Positions 4,679-13,575 are shown, numbered from the stretch's first letter. The stretch is 64,000 bases of DNA from Planctomycetia bacterium (GCA_005799495.1 SYGP01000035.1:124001-188000); one strand, 5' to 3'. Program-made: numbers and translations. The notes: generated by a model from the sequence alone, not told the origin.

Positions 4679-5608
4679 ATGTCCATCGAACCAGTTGAAC
4701 AAACGGCCCACCGCAGGGTGTCCTGGATCTGGATCGGACTTGCCGTGTCGCTTCCTCTTCACGCGCTCCTGCTCGCGCTTCTCTCGCTGTTCGAGGTGCC
4801 CATCGGTGTCCCGCAGGCGCGCGCCGAGGCGGAGGTGGAGTACACGCTGCTCGACCTGCAGCCACTCGAAGCGGCACCCGATGCAACGGTCGCAGGTGGC
4901 GAAGTGTCGCCCGAGATTCGTCCTGCAGGCGAGGACAACAATGCGTCGGACCCGACGCGGTTCGGATTGCCGGATCCCACGGGCAACGACGGAGGCGAGG
5001 CGGATGCCGTGAGCACGGGAGCCGAGGGTCTGTTTTCGTCGGGCGGTGGGGGAGGAAGCGGTGGACTCGGCGAGGGCAGCGGCGCGGCGACCACTTTCTT
5101 CGGCGTCAGCGGGCGCGGGAGGCGCTACGGCTACGTCGTCGACAAGTCGGGGTCGATGGGCATGCAGGGCCGCATGCAACGGGCGAAGGAGGAGATCGTC
5201 CGCAGCATCTCGGCGCTCCCCGATTTCGCTTCCGCGTGCATCACGCTGTTCGATGACAACTTCACGACGCTCGACCGAGAGCGCGGGTTCCTCAAGTGCC
5301 GCGACGATACCGTCAGACAGTATCGGGAGTGGATCGAGAAGGTCGCGCAAGGGGGCGGTACGAATCCCATTCCCGCGTTCGAGTTTCTCTTCACGAGGCC
5401 CGAACGCCCCGATGTGGTGTTCTTCATGAGTGATGGTGAGATTCCGCCCGATGCGGCGGATGAGATTCTCCGTCTCAATCGTCGGGGCCCCAACACGGTG
5501 ATCCACTGCATCGCATTCGGACAGGCCGCGGCGACCGCCCCTCTGCGGCGCATCGCATCGGAGACGGGCGGAACATTCACCGTTGCCACGCACGGAGCCT
5601 CGCCATGA
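4679..5608 (+). CDS. Membrane-anchored von Willebrand factor type A domain protein
   Basis: 309 residues. A single hydrophobic segment at about 15-38 anchors the protein in the inner membrane. A Gly/Asp-rich linker (about 60-140) leads to a VWA domain. The MIDAS metal site is complete: D155-K-S157-G-S159, T228 in GGGTNP, and D252 in FMSDGE. VWA domains bind partner proteins in a metal-dependent way; no enzyme activity is implied. It is the first gene of a seven-gene operon with ExbB/ExbD channel proteins, so it is probably the extracytoplasmic sensor or scaffold of that complex (inference). The next ATG overlaps its stop. ATG 4670 is an equally possible start, adding three residues. Confidence 0.85.
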   Translation: MSIEPVEQTAHRRVSWIWIGLAVSLPLHALLLALLSLFEVPIGVPQARAEAEVEYTLLDLQPLEAAPDATVAGGEVSPEIRPAGEDNNASDPTRFGLPDPTGNDGGEADAVSTGAEGLFSSGGGGGSGGLGEGSGAATTFFGVSGRGRRYGYVVDKSGSMGMQGRMQRAKEEIVRSISALPDFASACITLFDDNFTTLDRERGFLKCRDDTVRQYREWIEKVAQGGGTNPIPAFEFLFTRPERPDVVFFMSDGEIPPDAADEILRLNRRGPNTVIHCIAFGQAAATAPLRRIASETGGTFTVATHGASP

Positions 5609-6759
5609 ACGCCGCACGCCGACCGATGTCGCGGGTGATCGCATCGGCAGGTGCTCTGGCGGTCGCGGGTGCGGGCGCGTTGGGCGATCGTGTGACGATT
5701 GAGCTGCGCGATTCGATGGGACGCCGCGAAGTGGAGGCCGTCCGTGAGGACGCGGATGGAATGAGCATCCGCACGAGCGATGGGAACACGGTGATCGAGC
5801 AGTCCCTGCGCTGGGATCAGATCCGTGCAGTGGAGGGCGGCGCCCCGTCGCCGGAGCGAGCTGCAAGGCTGGCGCTGGGCGAGCAACTGTGGCGCGCTCG
5901 TACTCGGCTCGCGCGCGGCGATCTGGTGGGTGCGCGTGGCGCGTTCACCGATGCAGCGGCACTCCTGAACGCGCAGGCGACCGCGCAGGCGCGCGTGCAC
6001 CGGTGGATGGTGCTGGAAGGCCTCGCACGGACTTCGGCGGTGGTGCCGGACGATGCGGCGCGTGTGGCCCAGGCGTTGGAGGCCGCAGCACTGCGGAGCC
6101 AAGTCGGCGCTCTCGACGGCTGGCTCGCTGGTGGTGATGCCTTCGATGCGCGCAGTGGCTTGATGTTGACGGTTCCGCCCGCATGGTTGGATGCACAGCG
6201 TGCGGCGGCGGCCGGCGCGTCGCTGGACGATGCCGCGGCGCTCGCGCGCAAGGCGCAGGACTTCGTCGCGGCAGGGATCCTCGAAAGTGCGGGTCGAATC
6301 GCTGCCGCAGAGGCTGGAAAGCCGCGACCTGCGGCAGTGGCTGCCACGACGGCTGCACCGCAAGGTCCGCTCCGCAAGGGCCGTCAGCTGATCGATGCCT
6401 GGGCGGATGCGCTCAGCGACAACGCAGAGGCTCGCAAACGCGCGCGTCAGAAGCTCGCACAAATGGAGCGGTCGGAGGAGGGTGCACTTCGCCTTCTCGC
6501 GATCTACGCGCAGGGACGCAGCCTTGTGCTCGAGAACGACCCGGAAGAAGTCCGCCGTGGCGTGGGCAAGATGCTTCTCATCCCCGCTGCGCATGCCGAT
6601 GCGATACCACCGCTGACGGCCGTGGCTCTCGCGCAGTCGGCGGATGCACTCGCGCGGATCCGCGACGATGCTTCTGCCGGCTTGCTTCGTGCGGCAGGCG
6701 CAAATCTGGAGGATCCATTGCAGGATTCGCGACCGGTTGAAACAGGAGACACTCCGTGA
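5605..6759 (+). CDS. Exported protein of unknown function in the VWA/ExbBD operon
   Basis: 384 residues beginning with a probable signal peptide (MNAARRPMSRVIASAGALAV, cleavage near residue 27). A short beta-rich segment follows (about 28-75: DRVTIELRDSMGRREVEAV), resembling the small barrel often found in planctomycete secreted proteins. The remainder is Ala/Arg-rich helical sequence, possibly degenerate tetratricopeptide-like helices. I recognise no catalytic motif. Its ATG overlaps the stop of the VWA gene (ATGA), and its own stop overlaps the GTG of the ExbB-like gene (GTGA). That implies translational coupling and a shared complex. Confidence 0.8.
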   Translation: MNAARRPMSRVIASAGALAVAGAGALGDRVTIELRDSMGRREVEAVREDADGMSIRTSDGNTVIEQSLRWDQIRAVEGGAPSPERAARLALGEQLWRARTRLARGDLVGARGAFTDAAALLNAQATAQARVHRWMVLEGLARTSAVVPDDAARVAQALEAAALRSQVGALDGWLAGGDAFDARSGLMLTVPPAWLDAQRAAAAGASLDDAAALARKAQDFVAAGILESAGRIAAAEAGKPRPAAVAATTAAPQGPLRKGRQLIDAWADALSDNAEARKRARQKLAQMERSEEGALRLLAIYAQGRSLVLENDPEEVRRGVGKMLLIPAAHADAIPPLTAVALAQSADALARIRDDASAGLLRAAGANLEDPLQDSRPVETGDTP

Positions 6760-7433
6760 CTTTCTTCAAGTACATCGAGGGCGGCGGCGTCATCGGCTAT
6801 CTCATTCTCGCACTCAGCATTGCGGCAGTGGCCTTTGCGCTGCCAGCCGTGCTGCGAACCCGCAGGAGCAAGCTCGTGCCGCCGACGCAGATGGACGATC
6901 TGCGCATGCAGGCCGAAGCAGGCGACTTTCAGGCAGCATTGGAGCGCTGTCAGGGCGAGGAGGGTGACACATTCCTCGGTCGCATCGCTGCAGCAGGAAT
7001 CTCCCGTTCCTTTCGCAGTCCTCTGGGAGGACTCGAGGCTCGTGCGGCGATGGAGGATGCAGGAGAGGATGAGACGGCTCGGTTGTTCCGCGTCATCGAT
7101 CCGCTGGCATTGATCGCGAGTGTCGCTCCGCTGCTTGGGTTGCTCGGCACGGTGCAAGGAATGATCGGAGCGTTCGAAACGGTGGCAGGAACCGCCGCGC
7201 GTTCGAGTACCTACTACGAGACGCTCGCGGCCAACATCAGCATCGCTCTCATCACGACCTTTCAGGGGTTGGTGGTGGCGATTCCCTGCGTGATGGCGCA
7301 CTCCTGGCTGCGGGGGCGCATTGATCGCGCCGCGTCCGATGCCGGCAAGGCACTCGAGCCACTCGCGACCTCGCTCGAAAGGGTCGGTACCGACCTTGCC
7401 GCGGCGCCGCGTGAGGGAGAGCTGGTTCGATGA
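6756..7433 (+). CDS. MotA/TolQ/ExbB family proton channel protein
   Basis: 225 residues with the three-helix TolQ/ExbB topology: TM1 about 10-32, TM2 about 111-136 (VAPLLGLLGTVQGMIGAF, the family signature) and TM3 about 160-185. The large cytoplasmic loop between TM1 and TM2 is of normal size. Such proteins form a pentamer around ExbD/TolR and use the proton motive force to drive a periplasmic partner. The start is GTG, fixed by the four-base GTGA overlap with the preceding stop. Context (VWA protein before, two ExbD-like proteins after) points to a dedicated complex rather than canonical TonB or Tol-Pal. No TonB, TolA, TolB or Pal is adjacent. Confidence 0.92.
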   Translation: MTFFKYIEGGGVIGYLILALSIAAVAFALPAVLRTRRSKLVPPTQMDDLRMQAEAGDFQAALERCQGEEGDTFLGRIAAAGISRSFRSPLGGLEARAAMEDAGEDETARLFRVIDPLALIASVAPLLGLLGTVQGMIGAFETVAGTAARSSTYYETLAANISIALITTFQGLVVAIPCVMAHSWLRGRIDRAASDAGKALEPLATSLERVGTDLAAAPREGELVR

Positions 7434-7846
7434 AGATCGGCCGCAGGCGATACGGCATGGTGTCGCTCGACATGACGCCCATGATTGATGTCGTCTTCCT
7501 GTTGCTCATCTTCTTTCTCGTGACGGCACAGATGTCCGACATGGCGTCGACGCCCGTCACGCTGCCCGAGCAGCAGGGCACCGAGCAGGAGTCGGAGGGG
7601 GCGATCGGGCTTGTCGTGAATCTGGATGCGGCGGGAGTGATCGTGGTGGGGAGCGACGCACTGGAGCCAGCGGGCCTGATCGATCTGGCGAAAGATGCGC
7701 TCGCGCGCGATCCGACGGCGGTCCCTGTCGTGCGCGCCGATCGTCGCGCGCCTGCTGCGCGCCTGAACGAGGTTGTCGAAGGTCTTCGAAGTGGCGGGTG
7801 CCGCGCCGTACGCGTGGCCACGACGCGCCCCAAGGAGGCGCCATGA
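7430..7846 (+). CDS. ExbD/TolR family protein (first of two)
   Basis: 138 residues: a short basic cytoplasmic N-terminus, one transmembrane helix (about 17-37), and a periplasmic domain with the ExbD/TolR beta-alpha pattern. The membrane helix contains MIDVVFLLL with the proton-carrying Asp (D20) retained, so the protein should be functional in the motor. The ATG overlaps the ExbB-like stop (ATGA). A second, different ExbD-like gene follows immediately, so the channel could hold a heterodimer. Confidence 0.92.
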   Translation: MKIGRRRYGMVSLDMTPMIDVVFLLLIFFLVTAQMSDMASTPVTLPEQQGTEQESEGAIGLVVNLDAAGVIVVGSDALEPAGLIDLAKDALARDPTAVPVVRADRRAPAARLNEVVEGLRSGGCRAVRVATTRPKEAP

Positions 7847-8262
7847 AGATCGGTGCACGCTCGCGGCAAGCGGTGCATGGGCCGATCTCGCTGAGCATGA
7901 CCAGCATGATCGATGCGGTGTTCCTGCTGCTCTCCTATTTCATCTTCACCACCATGGCTGGGGAGCAGGAGTCGCACCTGACCGCCGATGTTGCTGCGAT
8001 GCGCCCCGGCAGCGGCGCATCGGCGCTGAGTCCGCAGATCGTGGAAGTGCAGTCCGATGCCGAAGGAGCGGTCTTTCGGATCGGAGCAAATCAAGTGCGT
8101 CAGTCCGGGCAGCTCGCGGCGATCCTGAAGCAGTTGCCCCACGAACCGGGCGTGGTGGTTCGAGTGCACCGAGGTCCCGATGTGGCTGCAGTCGCTGCGG
8201 CCATGCAAGCCGCGCAGGATGCGGGCTTCGAGAAGGTGTCCTATGTCGCGGCAGGCAAGTGA
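7843..8262 (+). CDS. ExbD/TolR family protein (second of two)
   Basis: 139 residues with the same plan as its upstream neighbour. The single membrane helix starts at SMIDAVFLLL with the key Asp kept at D24, and a short periplasmic domain follows. The start chosen (ATG 7843) overlaps the preceding stop (ATGA) and has a strong AAGGAGG ribosome binding site at 7832-7838. An ATG further upstream at 7798 would lie inside the previous gene without such a site. Sequence identity to the first ExbD copy appears low outside the helix, suggesting old duplication or specialisation rather than a recent tandem copy. Confidence 0.92.
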   Translation: MKIGARSRQAVHGPISLSMTSMIDAVFLLLSYFIFTTMAGEQESHLTADVAAMRPGSGASALSPQIVEVQSDAEGAVFRIGANQVRQSGQLAAILKQLPHEPGVVVRVHRGPDVAAVAAAMQAAQDAGFEKVSYVAAGK

Positions 8263-10927
8263 ACGCGGCTCGAGAGTCCCGTGGCCCGCGCGCCAACGCA
8301 TCCCTGCGTGGTTCGCGATTCCTGCGTGCGCGTGCTGCATCTTCTGGAACACGGCCACCGCGCGCGTGCAGGATGAGGCGCAGGCTGCCGACGAGAGTGC
8401 GCTACTTGCAGACTGGCTCGCGCAGGCTGGGCTGGATGAGGTCCTCGCGGTTGTGCTCGATGAGCAGGTGCGAAAGGCAGGCGCGGCGAGCCCAGCCGCC
8501 ACCGCGCGGCTCGCCGAGGTGTATGTGCGGCTTGCCGCGGCCGCGAGCGACGAAGACAGGGTCGCGGACTTGCGCCGACGGGTGGAACGATTTCTGCTGC
8601 GTGAGAAGGTGGCGCAACAATTCCGCCTGAGGTTGGCGATCGGACGCGCGGACTATCGCATGGCGCTCCGTGGGATCGAGCGACTTCGCCAAGGGCAGGG
8701 TGATCCGGAGTCACGAGCACAGACCATCGCCTCGCTCGAACAAGCGCGCATCGGTTTCGTGCGCATGGGTGAGCAGTTGACGAGCGAGGTGGAAGATCTG
8801 CGGACGCGGATGAACGGATCCGATGATGCGCAGCGCATCGGGTTGATGGCGCAGATCGATGAGAGTCGAGATCTGCAGCTCGCCGCACGATTCTTGGAGG
8901 CGTGGTGCGGGTACTGGCTGGTGTGGATCGATCGCCCGACGGCGGCATCGCCCGCGCCACCCGCGTCGGACTGGCCGCAGCGCGCCGAGAAGAGTGTGGC
9001 AGCCTGGATGGACTTGCTCGAGACGGGCAAGGCGAATCCACAGCCCGCGGATTGTTCGCTCGACCTCATGGCCGAGGAGTACTACGCACAGTCCGTGCTC
9101 GGGATGGCGCTCGCAAAGTCGCTGACGAGCGGTTGGGATGCATCGGCTCGGTGGTTCGCGCTGCTGGACAGGCCCGATGTGTGGCCTGGGCTTGCTGACC
9201 ACACGGATTGGCAACTGCATGCGATGATCGATGCGAGCGCCTTGGAACAGGCACGCGAGTTCGCCGCGAAGTCGCAGTCTTCTCTCGCAGCGAGCGCTCT
9301 GGCCGGAGCGGCAATCCGCGCAGTGCAGGAGAGTCGTGGCGAGGATGCTGCGGCGATGGGACTGGCGCGGTCTGCGATCCAGATTGCCGCGGCTCGCGGT
9401 GACTTTGGGTCCATTCGGCGCTTGACGCGTCGCATTCCGGCGCTCGCACGCGGCGGCGACTTCGAAGCGAGCCTCGCGCGAGGCATTGACTTGTACGACA
9501 AGGGGCGTTCCGCCTCGAGCGAGCAGGAACGGCGCACAACGCTCGACGCGGCTGCGCGCGAACTGCGTGCGGCGCTCGAGGGGGGTGGTGCGGAGCAGAC
9601 AGTGAGTGCAGCGGTGCGCGAACTGCTCGCGTGGTCGCTGCTGGGAGCCGGGAAGCCATGCGAGGCGTGCGAGTCCTTTGGGCTTGCAGCAAGCCAATCA
9701 TCCGGCAACAAGGCGGACGAGGCGCTGTGGATGGCCGTGCAGAGCGGATGCAGCGATGCATGCAAGAAGGCGGCTGATGGTGCGACGCGGTGCGTTGCGC
9801 TTGCGAAGGAATATCTTGCACGCTTCGAACTGGGAAATCATGCGTCGAGTGCCGCCGCGATCGTTGGAGAGTCGGAGGGCGCTGAGCGGGACGATGCGCT
9901 CGTGGAGCGCTTGCTGCACGACACGCTGCGCGGGGGCGTTCCTGTGCAGGTCCGAGAGACCGCGGCGCTGCTGCTCTATCGGCGCTTCCGTGGGTCGGAT
10001 GGCGTACGGCGGGTGCAGGAGGCGCGTCGCCTCCTTTCGATCGAACCGCTCGCAGACGATCGCTGGCCGCCCGAGAGTGTTGATCTCGTCCTGCGGCAGC
10101 AGCTCGAGGCTGCACTGGATCCTGTGGTCCTCGAGCGCGAGCAGGCTCGGGAGATTCTGGCGCGCGTCGCCAGGAAGTTCGCCGAAGGGAAGGAGCCCGG
10201 TGCAATTCGTGCAGAGCTGGCACTGCGGAGGCTTTCGCTTGCCGTGGCAGACCGCGACCAAGATCGGATGCAGCGTGCAATCGAGGCGGTTCGCCGTGCG
10301 GGCGATTCGCCGTGGCGGGGCATCGCCGAAACGACCTTGATTCGCGGTGCAGAGGCGCTGCTGCTGGATCCATCGACTCGGTCCTTGGAGGCAGTGGAGT
10401 TGCGCGGAAGCATCGTCGCTGCGCGGAGGCAACTCCAGACGCTTGCCGTGGCATCGAAGGACCCTGTGCGAATCCAGCGTGCAGAGGTGCAACTCGGCAC
10501 TTCGCTGCTCGAGTGCGCGCGCGCGATGCGCGAGGCAGCCGCGGACGGCAGCACGCTGCCTCCGAGGGCGGATGCGTCGGCACTGGCGCGCGAGGCGCTC
10601 GATGTCGCCAAGGCCATCCTGAAGCAGCGACCCGATGATGCACAGGGCTTCGCCATGCTTGCGGATGCCGCGATCGCGTGCGGACAGTTCGATGTCGCCT
10701 TCGAGGCACTCGGTCGATTGGTCGGATCGCTTCCGTCGCGCTCCGACGAGTGGTTTGAACGCAAGGCGGACTTGTGCGAACTGCTCGCGCGCCAGAATCC
10801 AGAGGAGGCACGCGCGATTCTTCGGCAGCATGTCGTCCTGATTCCCGACTGGGGACCTGGCAAGGCAGGTCAGCGCTTGGCACAGGTTGCGCAGCAGCTC
10901 GGCGTGACCGCGGGGAAGTCGCCATGA
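8243..10927 (+). CDS. Large exported repeat-rich protein of the VWA/ExbBD operon
   Basis: 894 residues. The start ATG at 8243 lies 20 bases inside the end of the second ExbD gene. The N-terminus (about 20-45) has a hydrophobic stretch ending in ATARVQDE, consistent with a signal peptide. The body is almost all alpha-helical, with repeated Ala/Leu/Arg helices (for example LAREALDVAKAILKQRPDDA) that look like degenerate TPR or HEAT units. No catalytic motif is recognised. It is probably a periplasmic scaffold for the motor complex (inference from operon position). Confidence 0.78.
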   Translation: MSRQASERGSRVPWPARQRIPAWFAIPACACCIFWNTATARVQDEAQAADESALLADWLAQAGLDEVLAVVLDEQVRKAGAASPAATARLAEVYVRLAAAASDEDRVADLRRRVERFLLREKVAQQFRLRLAIGRADYRMALRGIERLRQGQGDPESRAQTIASLEQARIGFVRMGEQLTSEVEDLRTRMNGSDDAQRIGLMAQIDESRDLQLAARFLEAWCGYWLVWIDRPTAASPAPPASDWPQRAEKSVAAWMDLLETGKANPQPADCSLDLMAEEYYAQSVLGMALAKSLTSGWDASARWFALLDRPDVWPGLADHTDWQLHAMIDASALEQAREFAAKSQSSLAASALAGAAIRAVQESRGEDAAAMGLARSAIQIAAARGDFGSIRRLTRRIPALARGGDFEASLARGIDLYDKGRSASSEQERRTTLDAAARELRAALEGGGAEQTVSAAVRELLAWSLLGAGKPCEACESFGLAASQSSGNKADEALWMAVQSGCSDACKKAADGATRCVALAKEYLARFELGNHASSAAAIVGESEGAERDDALVERLLHDTLRGGVPVQVRETAALLLYRRFRGSDGVRRVQEARRLLSIEPLADDRWPPESVDLVLRQQLEAALDPVVLEREQAREILARVARKFAEGKEPGAIRAELALRRLSLAVADRDQDRMQRAIEAVRRAGDSPWRGIAETTLIRGAEALLLDPSTRSLEAVELRGSIVAARRQLQTLAVASKDPVRIQRAEVQLGTSLLECARAMREAAADGSTLPPRADASALAREALDVAKAILKQRPDDAQGFAMLADAAIACGQFDVAFEALGRLVGSLPSRSDEWFERKADLCELLARQNPEEARAILRQHVVLIPDWGPGKAGQRLAQVAQQLGVTAGKSP

Positions 10928-13575
10928 GTGCAGCTCGGCGACTGCTGCGACTTCCCCTCTCGTGTGATGAACACACGCTTATTGGCGTGCGGGTCGGTGC
11001 GAGCGGCGCAGAGGTAACGGAGGCCCTTCGCGCGCGACTGCGCGCAGTCGATCAGGAGATTGGCGTTCCACCGGACATGGTGTTGAACGCCCGCCGGGAA
11101 CTGCAGGATGCGGTGCGTCGGCTGCTGCTCAGTCCTGCCGCCTCGCCCGTGGAATCGTCCGCCCCGTTGCAGTCTGCGTTCATGCCGCTCGCGGATCGTC
11201 GAATGTCCGCGCCCGTGGACGGGGATTCCACGCACCAGCCTGCGCACGATCTGATTGCCGCCACCATCCTGCTTCGCCGTGATCGTCGCCGCGCACACCT
11301 GCATGTGGCGCGTCTGATTGCACAGCGACCAAGCCTTGGCGTCCTTCGGTCGACCAGCGCTCGCGCTGTCGAAGCGCAAGTGGAACGGATCGGTCGACAG
11401 GCCGCCACGCTCGGAGAGGTGGATGCACCGCGCATTCGCCGCGCGAGTTGGCTGCTGCCGCTTCTGGTGGTTGGATCGATCGTCGGGCTCATTGCCGAGG
11501 TGATCGTGCTGCGGGGCAAACTGCTTGATGCGCAGCAGGGTGCGACCGATGCAGCGGCGGCACTCCGGGCATCCGCGGAGGATGCGCAGCGTGCGCATGA
11601 GCGGGAGATGGAAGCGCAGCGGTCGCCGATGAAAGGCGCGAAGAATCCGTCCGCGCCCGATACGAAGGCTGTGGTGCAAGAGGCCGCGGTCGGGATGCGT
11701 GATGAGCCGATGCCTCGAGGAAAAGAGGAGCCTCCCGTCCCACGCACGAACGAGGCGGGTCGCCTCCTTCGTGACCGCTGGCAGCGAACCGCGCGAGCGG
11801 TGTTCGACATCGACATCGATGCGCTTCGGAGCGATCGTGATCCATTCGCAGAGCCGCTTCGGCAACTGATCGCCCTTGAGCGCATGCTGACCGTTCATCA
11901 GGTTGCCGTGCAGTTGGAGGCGGGGCAGGACAGCAGTGCGCAGTCGTTGCTCGACACGCTGCCGACCGATGCGGTCATCCAGATTCCTGCGATGCCAACG
12001 GCGCGCGCAAGAAAGAGCGGACCGAACGATGGACAGTTGAAGAAGTCACTGGAACAGCAGCGGGGAGGGAACGATGCTCGCCTGTCGCTGCTGCGTGACT
12101 ACCGAACTCGTCCAGAGCCCGCGGGGCCTTTGGATGCGCGAGTCCTGGTGCAGGAGGCGCTGCGGGGACCATCGCGTGGAAGTCGGACACTGGCGCAGGC
12201 GATCCTCGTGGACCGTGGCTCTGATGCGCTCGATGTGCTGGAGGCGGTGGACGAACGCTACAAGGAGTGTGCGACGGACCTTTCGCTGCAGCCGATGATC
12301 CGCGTCCTCAGCGGAGTGGATCCTGCGGGTGCCGGCGGAGCCGCTGCCGCCCGTGCGGCGCTTGTGCGGCGCATCTTGGAGATGCGTGGATCTCGTGTGC
12401 CGCAAATCGATGATGCAGTCCGTGAGGTCACGATTCGTCTGGGGAGGATGCGGGGGCTGGCGAACGCGGAGCGATCGGATCCCGTCGACTCGCTCCGCAT
12501 GCTCGGGACGCGAGCCGTGAGTGGGAAGACAGCCGTCCGATTGCAGAGGCAGGGGATTCTCGCGGCGCTCGTGCAGGCGGGCACGGCTCTGCTGCATGAA
12601 CAGGCGGCGCTCGTGGAGGCGCGGCGTCCCGCGGATCGGGATCAAATCCGAAGGTTGGTCGCTCATGCGCAGTCCGATCGCCGCGCGAGTGCCAGTGCGC
12701 TCGGGCAAGCCCTGGTCAACGCGCGTTCACTGCTCGAACTGGATGCGCTGCAACTTGGCGTGACGCCGCTGCGCAGTCCGAGGACTGATCCGACTCCGCT
12801 GCTCAAGGACTACGAATGGGATCGGCCAGTGGACCCTGCGGTGCAAGATCGATGGGCATCGCGACTGGGTGAACTCGATCCGCAGCGACCTGCGGCGTAC
12901 TTCCTGCTCGCGGAGGAGGTCGCCGATGCGGGTGGTGGTTCATCGGACTCCGTGCGGCTTGCCGCGCAACTCTACGCACTCGCCGCGACGCTCGATCCAT
13001 CCGCACATGCCGCATCGAGCGCGCTCGGGCTTGCGGCCCTGCAGCCCAAGACGCCGGCGGGTGCCATCGCGGCGGCAGAGTGGCGCGCTGCTGCGCAGCG
13101 CTGGAGTGTGACGCGGATCGCTGCCCTGGATGCCGCGCTGCCTGACCCGTCCGCAGCCAGTCTTTCTGCGCGGCAGGGGGTCGTGGATGTCATCACGAAT
13201 CTGCGCCGTGGACTCGGACGCAAGGCCATGGAGCGCCTGAAGGATGATGCGGTGCGTTCACTCTTCGACCGCGTCATGCTCAGCGTGCCAGGTGGACCTG
13301 CGGCCGTGGAGCAGTTGATCGCGCAGCATGTGAACGCGACGCCGCCCATGCTCGACCTGCCCGTGGAACAGGCGCTGCTCGGCATGGAACTTGCGCTGCT
13401 CGCACCAGATCGGCGTCGTTGGTCTGACGCGATCTTGCTCGGGGGTGACGCGCCCATCTCGGATGCGCCGCTCGGCAGCGCGTCGGAGGTGTTCGGCGCG
13501 GATCCGCAGAAAAGCAAGTGGAGCGCGGTGCAAGGTTGGTCGTCGCCGCCGGTGCAGTCGGCGCCGCAACCGTGA
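10924..13575 (+). CDS. Large single-pass membrane protein, last gene of the VWA/ExbBD operon
   Basis: 883 residues starting at the ATGA overlap with the preceding gene. Residues 1-70 are a compact helical segment (ASGAEVTEALRARLRAVDQ) that faintly recalls the helical pair of a J-domain, without an HPD motif. One transmembrane helix lies at about 175-197 (LLPLLVVGSIVGLIAEVIVL), followed by an acidic/basic linker and a ~650-residue helical domain. The helix predicts cytoplasmic N-terminal and periplasmic C-terminal parts. Function is unknown. Coupling to the channel genes suggests it is the energised partner or a structural strut (inference). Confidence 0.78.
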   Translation: MSAARRLLRLPLSCDEHTLIGVRVGASGAEVTEALRARLRAVDQEIGVPPDMVLNARRELQDAVRRLLLSPAASPVESSAPLQSAFMPLADRRMSAPVDGDSTHQPAHDLIAATILLRRDRRRAHLHVARLIAQRPSLGVLRSTSARAVEAQVERIGRQAATLGEVDAPRIRRASWLLPLLVVGSIVGLIAEVIVLRGKLLDAQQGATDAAAALRASAEDAQRAHEREMEAQRSPMKGAKNPSAPDTKAVVQEAAVGMRDEPMPRGKEEPPVPRTNEAGRLLRDRWQRTARAVFDIDIDALRSDRDPFAEPLRQLIALERMLTVHQVAVQLEAGQDSSAQSLLDTLPTDAVIQIPAMPTARARKSGPNDGQLKKSLEQQRGGNDARLSLLRDYRTRPEPAGPLDARVLVQEALRGPSRGSRTLAQAILVDRGSDALDVLEAVDERYKECATDLSLQPMIRVLSGVDPAGAGGAAAARAALVRRILEMRGSRVPQIDDAVREVTIRLGRMRGLANAERSDPVDSLRMLGTRAVSGKTAVRLQRQGILAALVQAGTALLHEQAALVEARRPADRDQIRRLVAHAQSDRRASASALGQALVNARSLLELDALQLGVTPLRSPRTDPTPLLKDYEWDRPVDPAVQDRWASRLGELDPQRPAAYFLLAEEVADAGGGSSDSVRLAAQLYALAATLDPSAHAASSALGLAALQPKTPAGAIAAAEWRAAAQRWSVTRIAALDAALPDPSAASLSARQGVVDVITNLRRGLGRKAMERLKDDAVRSLFDRVMLSVPGGPAAVEQLIAQHVNATPPMLDLPVEQALLGMELALLAPDRRRWSDAILLGGDAPISDAPLGSASEVFGADPQKSKWSAVQGWSSPPVQSAPQP

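Follow-up and report, generated by a model that had tools for sequence, protein, structure and literature searches.

A seven-gene operon of Planctomycetota predicted to encode a proton-driven envelope motor with a VWA-domain force transducer

Here, we describe a seven-gene operon in a 64,000-nucleotide stretch of DNA (the window) from a Planctomycetia bacterium (GCA_005799495.1, SYGP01000035.1:124001-188000). Its products most probably form a Ton/Tol-type machine, which would be driven by the proton motive force and would transmit force across the envelope with a VWA-domain protein as the transducer. The gene set, its synteny, the motifs with their spacing, the invariant pore residues and the modelled solenoid folds were all established from sequence. 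Motifs, conserved pore residues and phylum-wide synteny support the original prediction that the operon encodes an energised complex of the envelope, with a VWA protein in the place of TonB or TolA.

An ORF check of the window recovered all seven genes on the plus strand between positions 4679 and 13575, in the predicted series of a VWA protein, an exported protein, ExbB, two ExbD proteins and two proteins of ~890 residues (Table 1). The predicted junctions were likewise correct, namely ATGA, GTGA, ATGA, ATGA, a 20-base overlap and ATGA in this order. As named from translations, the neighbouring genes are pyrH/frr/nrdR/thrS on the divergent side and cystathionine gamma-synthase/ssb on the convergent side. 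Pfam families were matched by P0001, P0003, P0004 and P0005, and P0002, P0006 and P0007 had no match above the cut-off. Genes for TonB, TolA, TolB or Pal were not found at the locus, which bears out their predicted local absence.

Table 1. Features of the operon, in coordinates of the window.
Feature	Coordinates	Strand	Evidence
P0001, candidate VWA force transducer, 309 aa	4679..5608	+	VWA_3 1e-7 (residues 153-300), alignment, conservation
Ser24-x3-His28, putative TM-helix motor-contact pair (SHLS motif)	4748..4762	+	homologue conservation
D-box-like strand V53-E-Y-T-L57, start at His28 +25	4835..4849	+	pattern count in homologues
VWA domain with complete MIDAS (D155-x-S157-x-S159, T228, D252)	5126..5587	+	conservation
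P0002, exported protein, 384 aa	5605..6759	+	alignment, AlphaFold2 (pLDDT 86.6), weak TPR-like matches
P0003, ExbB/TolQ-type ring subunit, 225 aa, GTG start	6756..7433	+	MotA_ExbB 1.8e-25
P0004, ExbD1, 138 aa, pore aspartate D20	7430..7846	+	ExbD 1.7e-22
P0005, ExbD2, 139 aa, pore aspartate D24	7843..8262	+	ExbD 9.4e-13
P0006, large exported TPR-like solenoid, 894 aa	8243..10927	+	alignment, AlphaFold2, TPR hits
P0006 C-terminal ~110-120 residues, most widely conserved part	10520..10882	+	profile matches
P0007, membrane-anchored protein, 883 aa	10924..13575	+	two alignments
P0007 C-terminal part, own exported gene outside the genus	12844..13575	+	split genes in relatives

The candidate transducer P0001 consists of an N-terminal TM helix, a disordered glycine-rich linker of ~110 residues and a C-terminal VWA domain. 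Among the 92 distinct VWA homologues used for all residue counts of this protein, Ser24 is present in 92/92 and His28 in 91/92, the remaining one having Asn, and no other position of the TM helix is conserved above about 75%. The gene for the homologue with Asn (L090, 9530-10564) is adjoined by ExbB and ExbD genes. The Ser-x3-His core of the SHLS motif is how TonB and TolA bind ExbB and TolQ (PMC12215075); the third position of the motif is Leu in 57/92 of the VWA homologues and the fourth is not conserved. Furthermore, the genome's own TonB was matched by the VWA TM region in a profile comparison (E 1.8e-5, probability 78%). In E. coli TonB, the D-box starts at Ile45, 25 residues past His20 (PMC12215075). 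The alternating-hydrophobic strand pattern in the VWA homologues has its maximum at His+25 (36/92), is almost confined to +22 to +29 and lies near 1% across most other linker positions.

In the VWA domain, the MIDAS residues D155, S157, S159, T228 and D252 each occur in 92/92 homologues, so that this distal domain probably serves to bind a ligand in a metal-dependent manner. Together with the TM helix, this agrees with the earlier description of a MIDAS-competent, membrane-anchored protein. P0001 looks like a substitute for TonB/TolA, and it is the only product of the operon in which motor-contact motifs can be recognised. The original prediction had given the TonB/TolA role to the VWA protein and the two ~890-residue proteins together; the assignment stands for the former, which carries these motifs, but not for the latter, which do not.

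The hallmarks of an ExbB/ExbD proton motor, the pore threonines of ExbB and the membrane aspartate of ExbD, are present in P0003-P0005. In P0003, the pore threonines T132 and T168 as well as P177 are found in 69/69 homologues, and S21 is invariant in all ungapped sequences. The pore aspartate is equally constant in both ExbD proteins (70/70 for ExbD1 and 68/68 for ExbD2), the second of which is clearly distinct from the first. In E. coli, Ser16 and His20 of TonB touch Ser34 and Trp38 of ExbB, and Trp38 in turn touches Pro190 (PMC12215075). By our own reading of the TM helices, S21, a hydrophobic residue and P177 of P0003 would be the counterparts of ExbB Ser34, Trp38 and Pro190, with Leu/Val at the position of the Trp through which TonB/TolA is connected to the E. 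coli ring.

The AlphaFold2 model of P0002 shows a small five-strand beta domain (residues 29-77) followed by a helical solenoid. In that of P0006, which has good confidence (pLDDT 88.5), a disordered, signal-like start leads into a solenoid of about 40 helices. TPR hits were obtained for 4/21 members of the P0006 family, and the C-terminal part of P0006 alone matches proteins of ~800-900 aa in other classes and further families. With Foldseek, P0002 obtained weak TPR matches only, and P0006 was matched by generic helical scaffolds at low TM-score; no specific relative of either protein was among these TPR-like scaffolds. The match of P0006 to a chain of the Campylobacter flagellar-motor periplasmic scaffold (2e-5, low TM-score) was not taken as homology.

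P0007 comprises a cytoplasmic, possibly J-like N-terminus, a TM segment at about 11449-11511 and a periplasmic helical portion. Outside the genus, it mostly corresponds to an adjacent pair of genes for a membrane protein of ~970-1140 aa and a protein of ~250-335 aa with a signal-like N-terminus; such split genes occur in L057, L060, L062, L065 and L066 as well as in at least about 20 public loci. On this comparison P0007 is a gene fusion, and the free-standing exported version indicates that its C-terminal part is periplasmic. The N-terminal ~75 residues are possibly a degenerate J domain. The DnaJ profile gave only a weak match in the P0007 family (E 0.18, one relative), and in most of the longer relatives His-Pro, though not HPD, stands where the motif would be expected, while P0007 itself has neither.

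A single-sequence search detected P0006 in 19/19 genomes of the genus, in 6/6 other sampled genera of the family and in 5/16 other genomes of the order. Among 23 loci read around these matches, all those on complete contigs have the order VWA, exported protein, ExbB, ExbD1, ExbD2, P0006 and P0007, and the operon adjoins pyrH/frr in most loci inspected. With its gene order conserved in relatives that have a complete locus, the operon is far more than a chance arrangement. A scan of public genomes yielded at least 80 loci, mostly from Phycisphaerae, of which at least 45 have the VWA, exported protein, motor trio and P0006 genes together; in at least four others, the exported protein (and a recognisable P0007) is all that is missing. 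Many of the remaining loci are contig ends, and these counts overlap the 23-locus set and are not frequencies. In L128 (6083-7875), an extra ExbB-ExbD-ExbD trio lies immediately upstream of a complete VWA operon. The P0006 profile also found full-length relatives in one family of another class, beside the C-terminal matches in further families. At the loci of these matches, the series VWA-ExbB-ExbD-ExbD-solenoid recurs and Ser-x3-His is present in 8/8 VWA proteins found; near three of the matches (L218-L220), motor genes were not found. The operon is thus order-wide and its core is shared with other classes of Planctomycetota, so that the synteny is not confined to a single genome; such confinement would have told against the original prediction.

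The conserved setting also bears on a possible role in defence. Zorya anti-phage systems use a MotA/ExbB-like motor, and a motor of this kind triggering an effector could in principle be read into the present operon on the strength of that common component. However, none of the seven proteins was matched at E<=1 by a PADLOC model, those for ZorA/ZorB and effectors included, a nuclease/helicase effector is absent, and a conserved site next to pyrH/frr does not amount to a defence island. Zorya-type defence was rejected on the PADLOC result and is highly improbable.

In at least nine public loci, the VWA gene and P0006, usually with P0007 relatives, occur without ExbB/ExbD, and the VWA proteins of these loci retain Ser-x3-His. 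Five of these genomes carry a closely matching, free-standing ExbB-ExbD1-ExbD2 trio elsewhere (L206-L210), a sixth has an ExbB match of equal strength elsewhere, and three (G045, G046 and G049) gave weaker ExbB matches only. Given these trios, the motor behaves as a movable cassette for which the junction overlaps are dispensable. In L049, moreover, a gap of ~40 bases precedes the ExbB gene, and this gap, together with the motor encoded elsewhere in several relatives, means that the overlaps are not obligatory. The original prediction took the overlapping junctions as a sign of fixed stoichiometry. This part was not upheld, since overlaps are lost and the motor is relocated in relatives. Nor do overlaps imply a fixed stoichiometry in general, because known motors have a stoichiometry of 5:2.

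Combining these observations, we propose that proton flow would be converted into movement by a ring of ExbB, the pore of which would hold an ExbD1/ExbD2 pair, presumably a heterodimer. The TM helix of P0001 may dock on ExbB via Ser24 and His28, and its linker strand may attach to the periplasmic ExbD domains in the manner of the TonB D-box. The VWA domain would then grip a ligand through its metal-dependent site and be pulled. Several observations speak against this proposal, namely Leu/Val in the place of the E. coli Trp, the variable fourth SHLS position, the Asn homologue of L090 next to an intact motor and the weaker ExbB matches of G045, G046 and G049. The P0002 and P0006 solenoids and the membrane-anchored P0007 probably act as a periplasmic scaffold or clutch that presents the ligand. 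The most likely task, if weakly supported, would be outer-membrane tethering or remodelling rather than the uptake of one nutrient, and tethering or constriction as the specific function is offered tentatively. A fuller version, in which the operon encodes Planctomycetota's own outer-membrane tethering and constriction machine, with the VWA arm serving for TolA plus TolB and the J-like P0007 linking the cytoplasm to the solenoid clutch, seems rather improbable.

The remainder of the genome (2.36 Mb, 97.8% complete, 50 contigs) was surveyed by family searches, which gave five MotA/ExbB matches. Contig C13 holds a complete Ton set with ExbB, ExbD, the genome's only TonB_C protein and its only receptor plug domain. 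The compact cassette (L012, 5234-10422) encodes a coiled-coil protein, a long ExbB, ExbD, TonB and a TPR protein, and the plug domain lies ~5 kb from it. A nearby TonB/TolA-Pal set as the true partner of the present ExbB/ExbD proteins would likewise have told against the original prediction, but TonB of this genome is provided with a separate motor and receptor on another contig, C13. These data also touch on the proposal of macromolecule uptake or export, in which an outer-membrane gate would be opened to large substrates by the VWA domain. Macromolecule uptake has been reported for planctomycetes, which would fit this proposal, as would the Ton-like motor motifs. However, an outer-membrane barrel or receptor gene is neither part of the operon nor constantly beside it, and the only plug domain of a receptor is located with TonB. 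We consider transport of large substrates unlikely.

A second, divergent operon of similar design with overlapping junctions lies on contig C11 (L014, 4423-10664). Its products are a DoxX-like protein, a VWA protein of 423 aa that has both Ser-x3-His and MIDAS, ExbB, a pair of ExbDs and an exported helical protein of 861 aa. Similarity between the latter and P0006 was not detected (hhalign probability 0.3%), and homology of the two was rejected on this basis. A lone ExbB-like protein without ExbD is encoded on contig C26 (L013, about 9259-10989), where it adjoins an FHA/PP2C-type phosphatase gene. Contig C4 has a MotA-like gene region (L015, about 7640-9330) followed by two small single-TM-helix proteins, one of which begins MSFFSFQDIMACVTGIMILVTLILAL.

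The survey also bears on a sharper form of the favoured explanation, rather than an exclusive rival to it, in which the operon is the planctomycete equivalent of Tol-Pal. Here, the VWA arm would replace TolA (and TolB) and act on Pal-like lipoproteins or peptidoglycan, whereby the outer membrane is kept or constricted. TolB_N had 0 matches in the genome, E. coli and other controls being detected, and yet the genome encodes two Pal-like OmpA-domain lipoproteins (contig C26). A TolA-type protein was not found beside any motor read, near-universal retention in relatives fits a housekeeping role, and the periplasmic TPR proteins are reminiscent of CpoB. On the other hand, the Pal-like genes are unlinked to the operon and Pal binding is only putative, and two VWA operons per genome suggest more than one task. 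An equivalent of Tol-Pal is possible but doubtful. Surface gliding or adhesion in the manner of AglRQS, with trans-envelope partners, would suit the make-up of one TolQ-like and two TolR-like subunits and the role proposed for vWA transducers in PMC12204202. Gliding-type genes were not recognised near the loci read, however, and gliding is not what one would expect of an operon universally present in planktonic relatives with small genomes, which makes this role very unlikely.

The cell biology of Planctomycetota is unusual, and little is known of how their outer membrane is energised. With the present analysis, a structural prediction of 2025 (PMC12204202) becomes a defined set of genes with residues open to testing, namely Ser24, His28, strand 53-57 and Asp155 of the VWA protein and Ser21 of ExbB. 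New here are the constant accessory set, the gene fusion, the detachable motor cassette and the second operon in the same genome. If the fuller reading as an outer-membrane tethering and constriction machine is true, it would add a distinct proton-driven envelope-motor architecture beside Ton, Tol and Agl, and it would explain outer-membrane maintenance in lineages without canonical Tol-Pal. In the literature, an experimental study of any operon member was not found, and the main text of the essential-gene paper on Planctopirus limnophila does not mention the operon's genes.

The operon shares with the Ton system the motor subunits, Ser-x3-His and a D-box at the equal +25 spacing, but TonB_C is replaced by a VWA domain, the two ExbDs differ from each other and the operon has no receptor. 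Canonical Ton membership was rejected, as TonB_C is not in the operon and the only TonB_C and Plug domains lie on C13. The motor type, a transducer in one operon and a periplasmic TPR protein recall Tol-Pal, from which the operon differs in lacking the TolA C-terminal domain, TolB and Pal; canonical Tol-Pal membership was rejected on the missing TolB_N. The AglRQS motor of Myxococcus has one TolQ-like and two TolR-like subunits, the same composition as here, but Glt/Agl-type genes were not seen and the present operon has a dedicated TM-anchored VWA transducer.

The closest likeness is to the inner-membrane vWA force transducers with an SHLS helix, a motor box and a C-terminal vWA domain predicted by Williams-Jones et al. 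in 2025 (PMC12204202). Their genes lie beside tolQ-like, paired tolR-like and TPR genes, and the hosts include the PVC group with Planctomycetes; docking through the His was modelled with AF3, a gliding role was proposed and the function was stated as unknown (PMC12204202). Both share an SHLS-type TM helix (Ser-x3-His), a motor-box/D-box strand, a linker (disordered and about 100 residues long there, about 110 in P0001), a C-terminal vWA domain, and synteny with one TolQ-like gene, two different TolR-like genes and a TPR gene. Every testable sequence feature of the class, as that paper describes it, was found here, and judged by these features the operon is a member of it. The earlier label "uncharacterised" hence holds experimentally but not for the class, which had been predicted in 2025. 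In contrast to the published arrangement, the operon opens with the VWA gene and has the large TPR gene behind the motor genes, and P0002 and P0007 are extra constant members that its main text does not mention. Set against that account, the operon is not a categorically new machine, and what distinguishes it is its gene order and its additional constant components.
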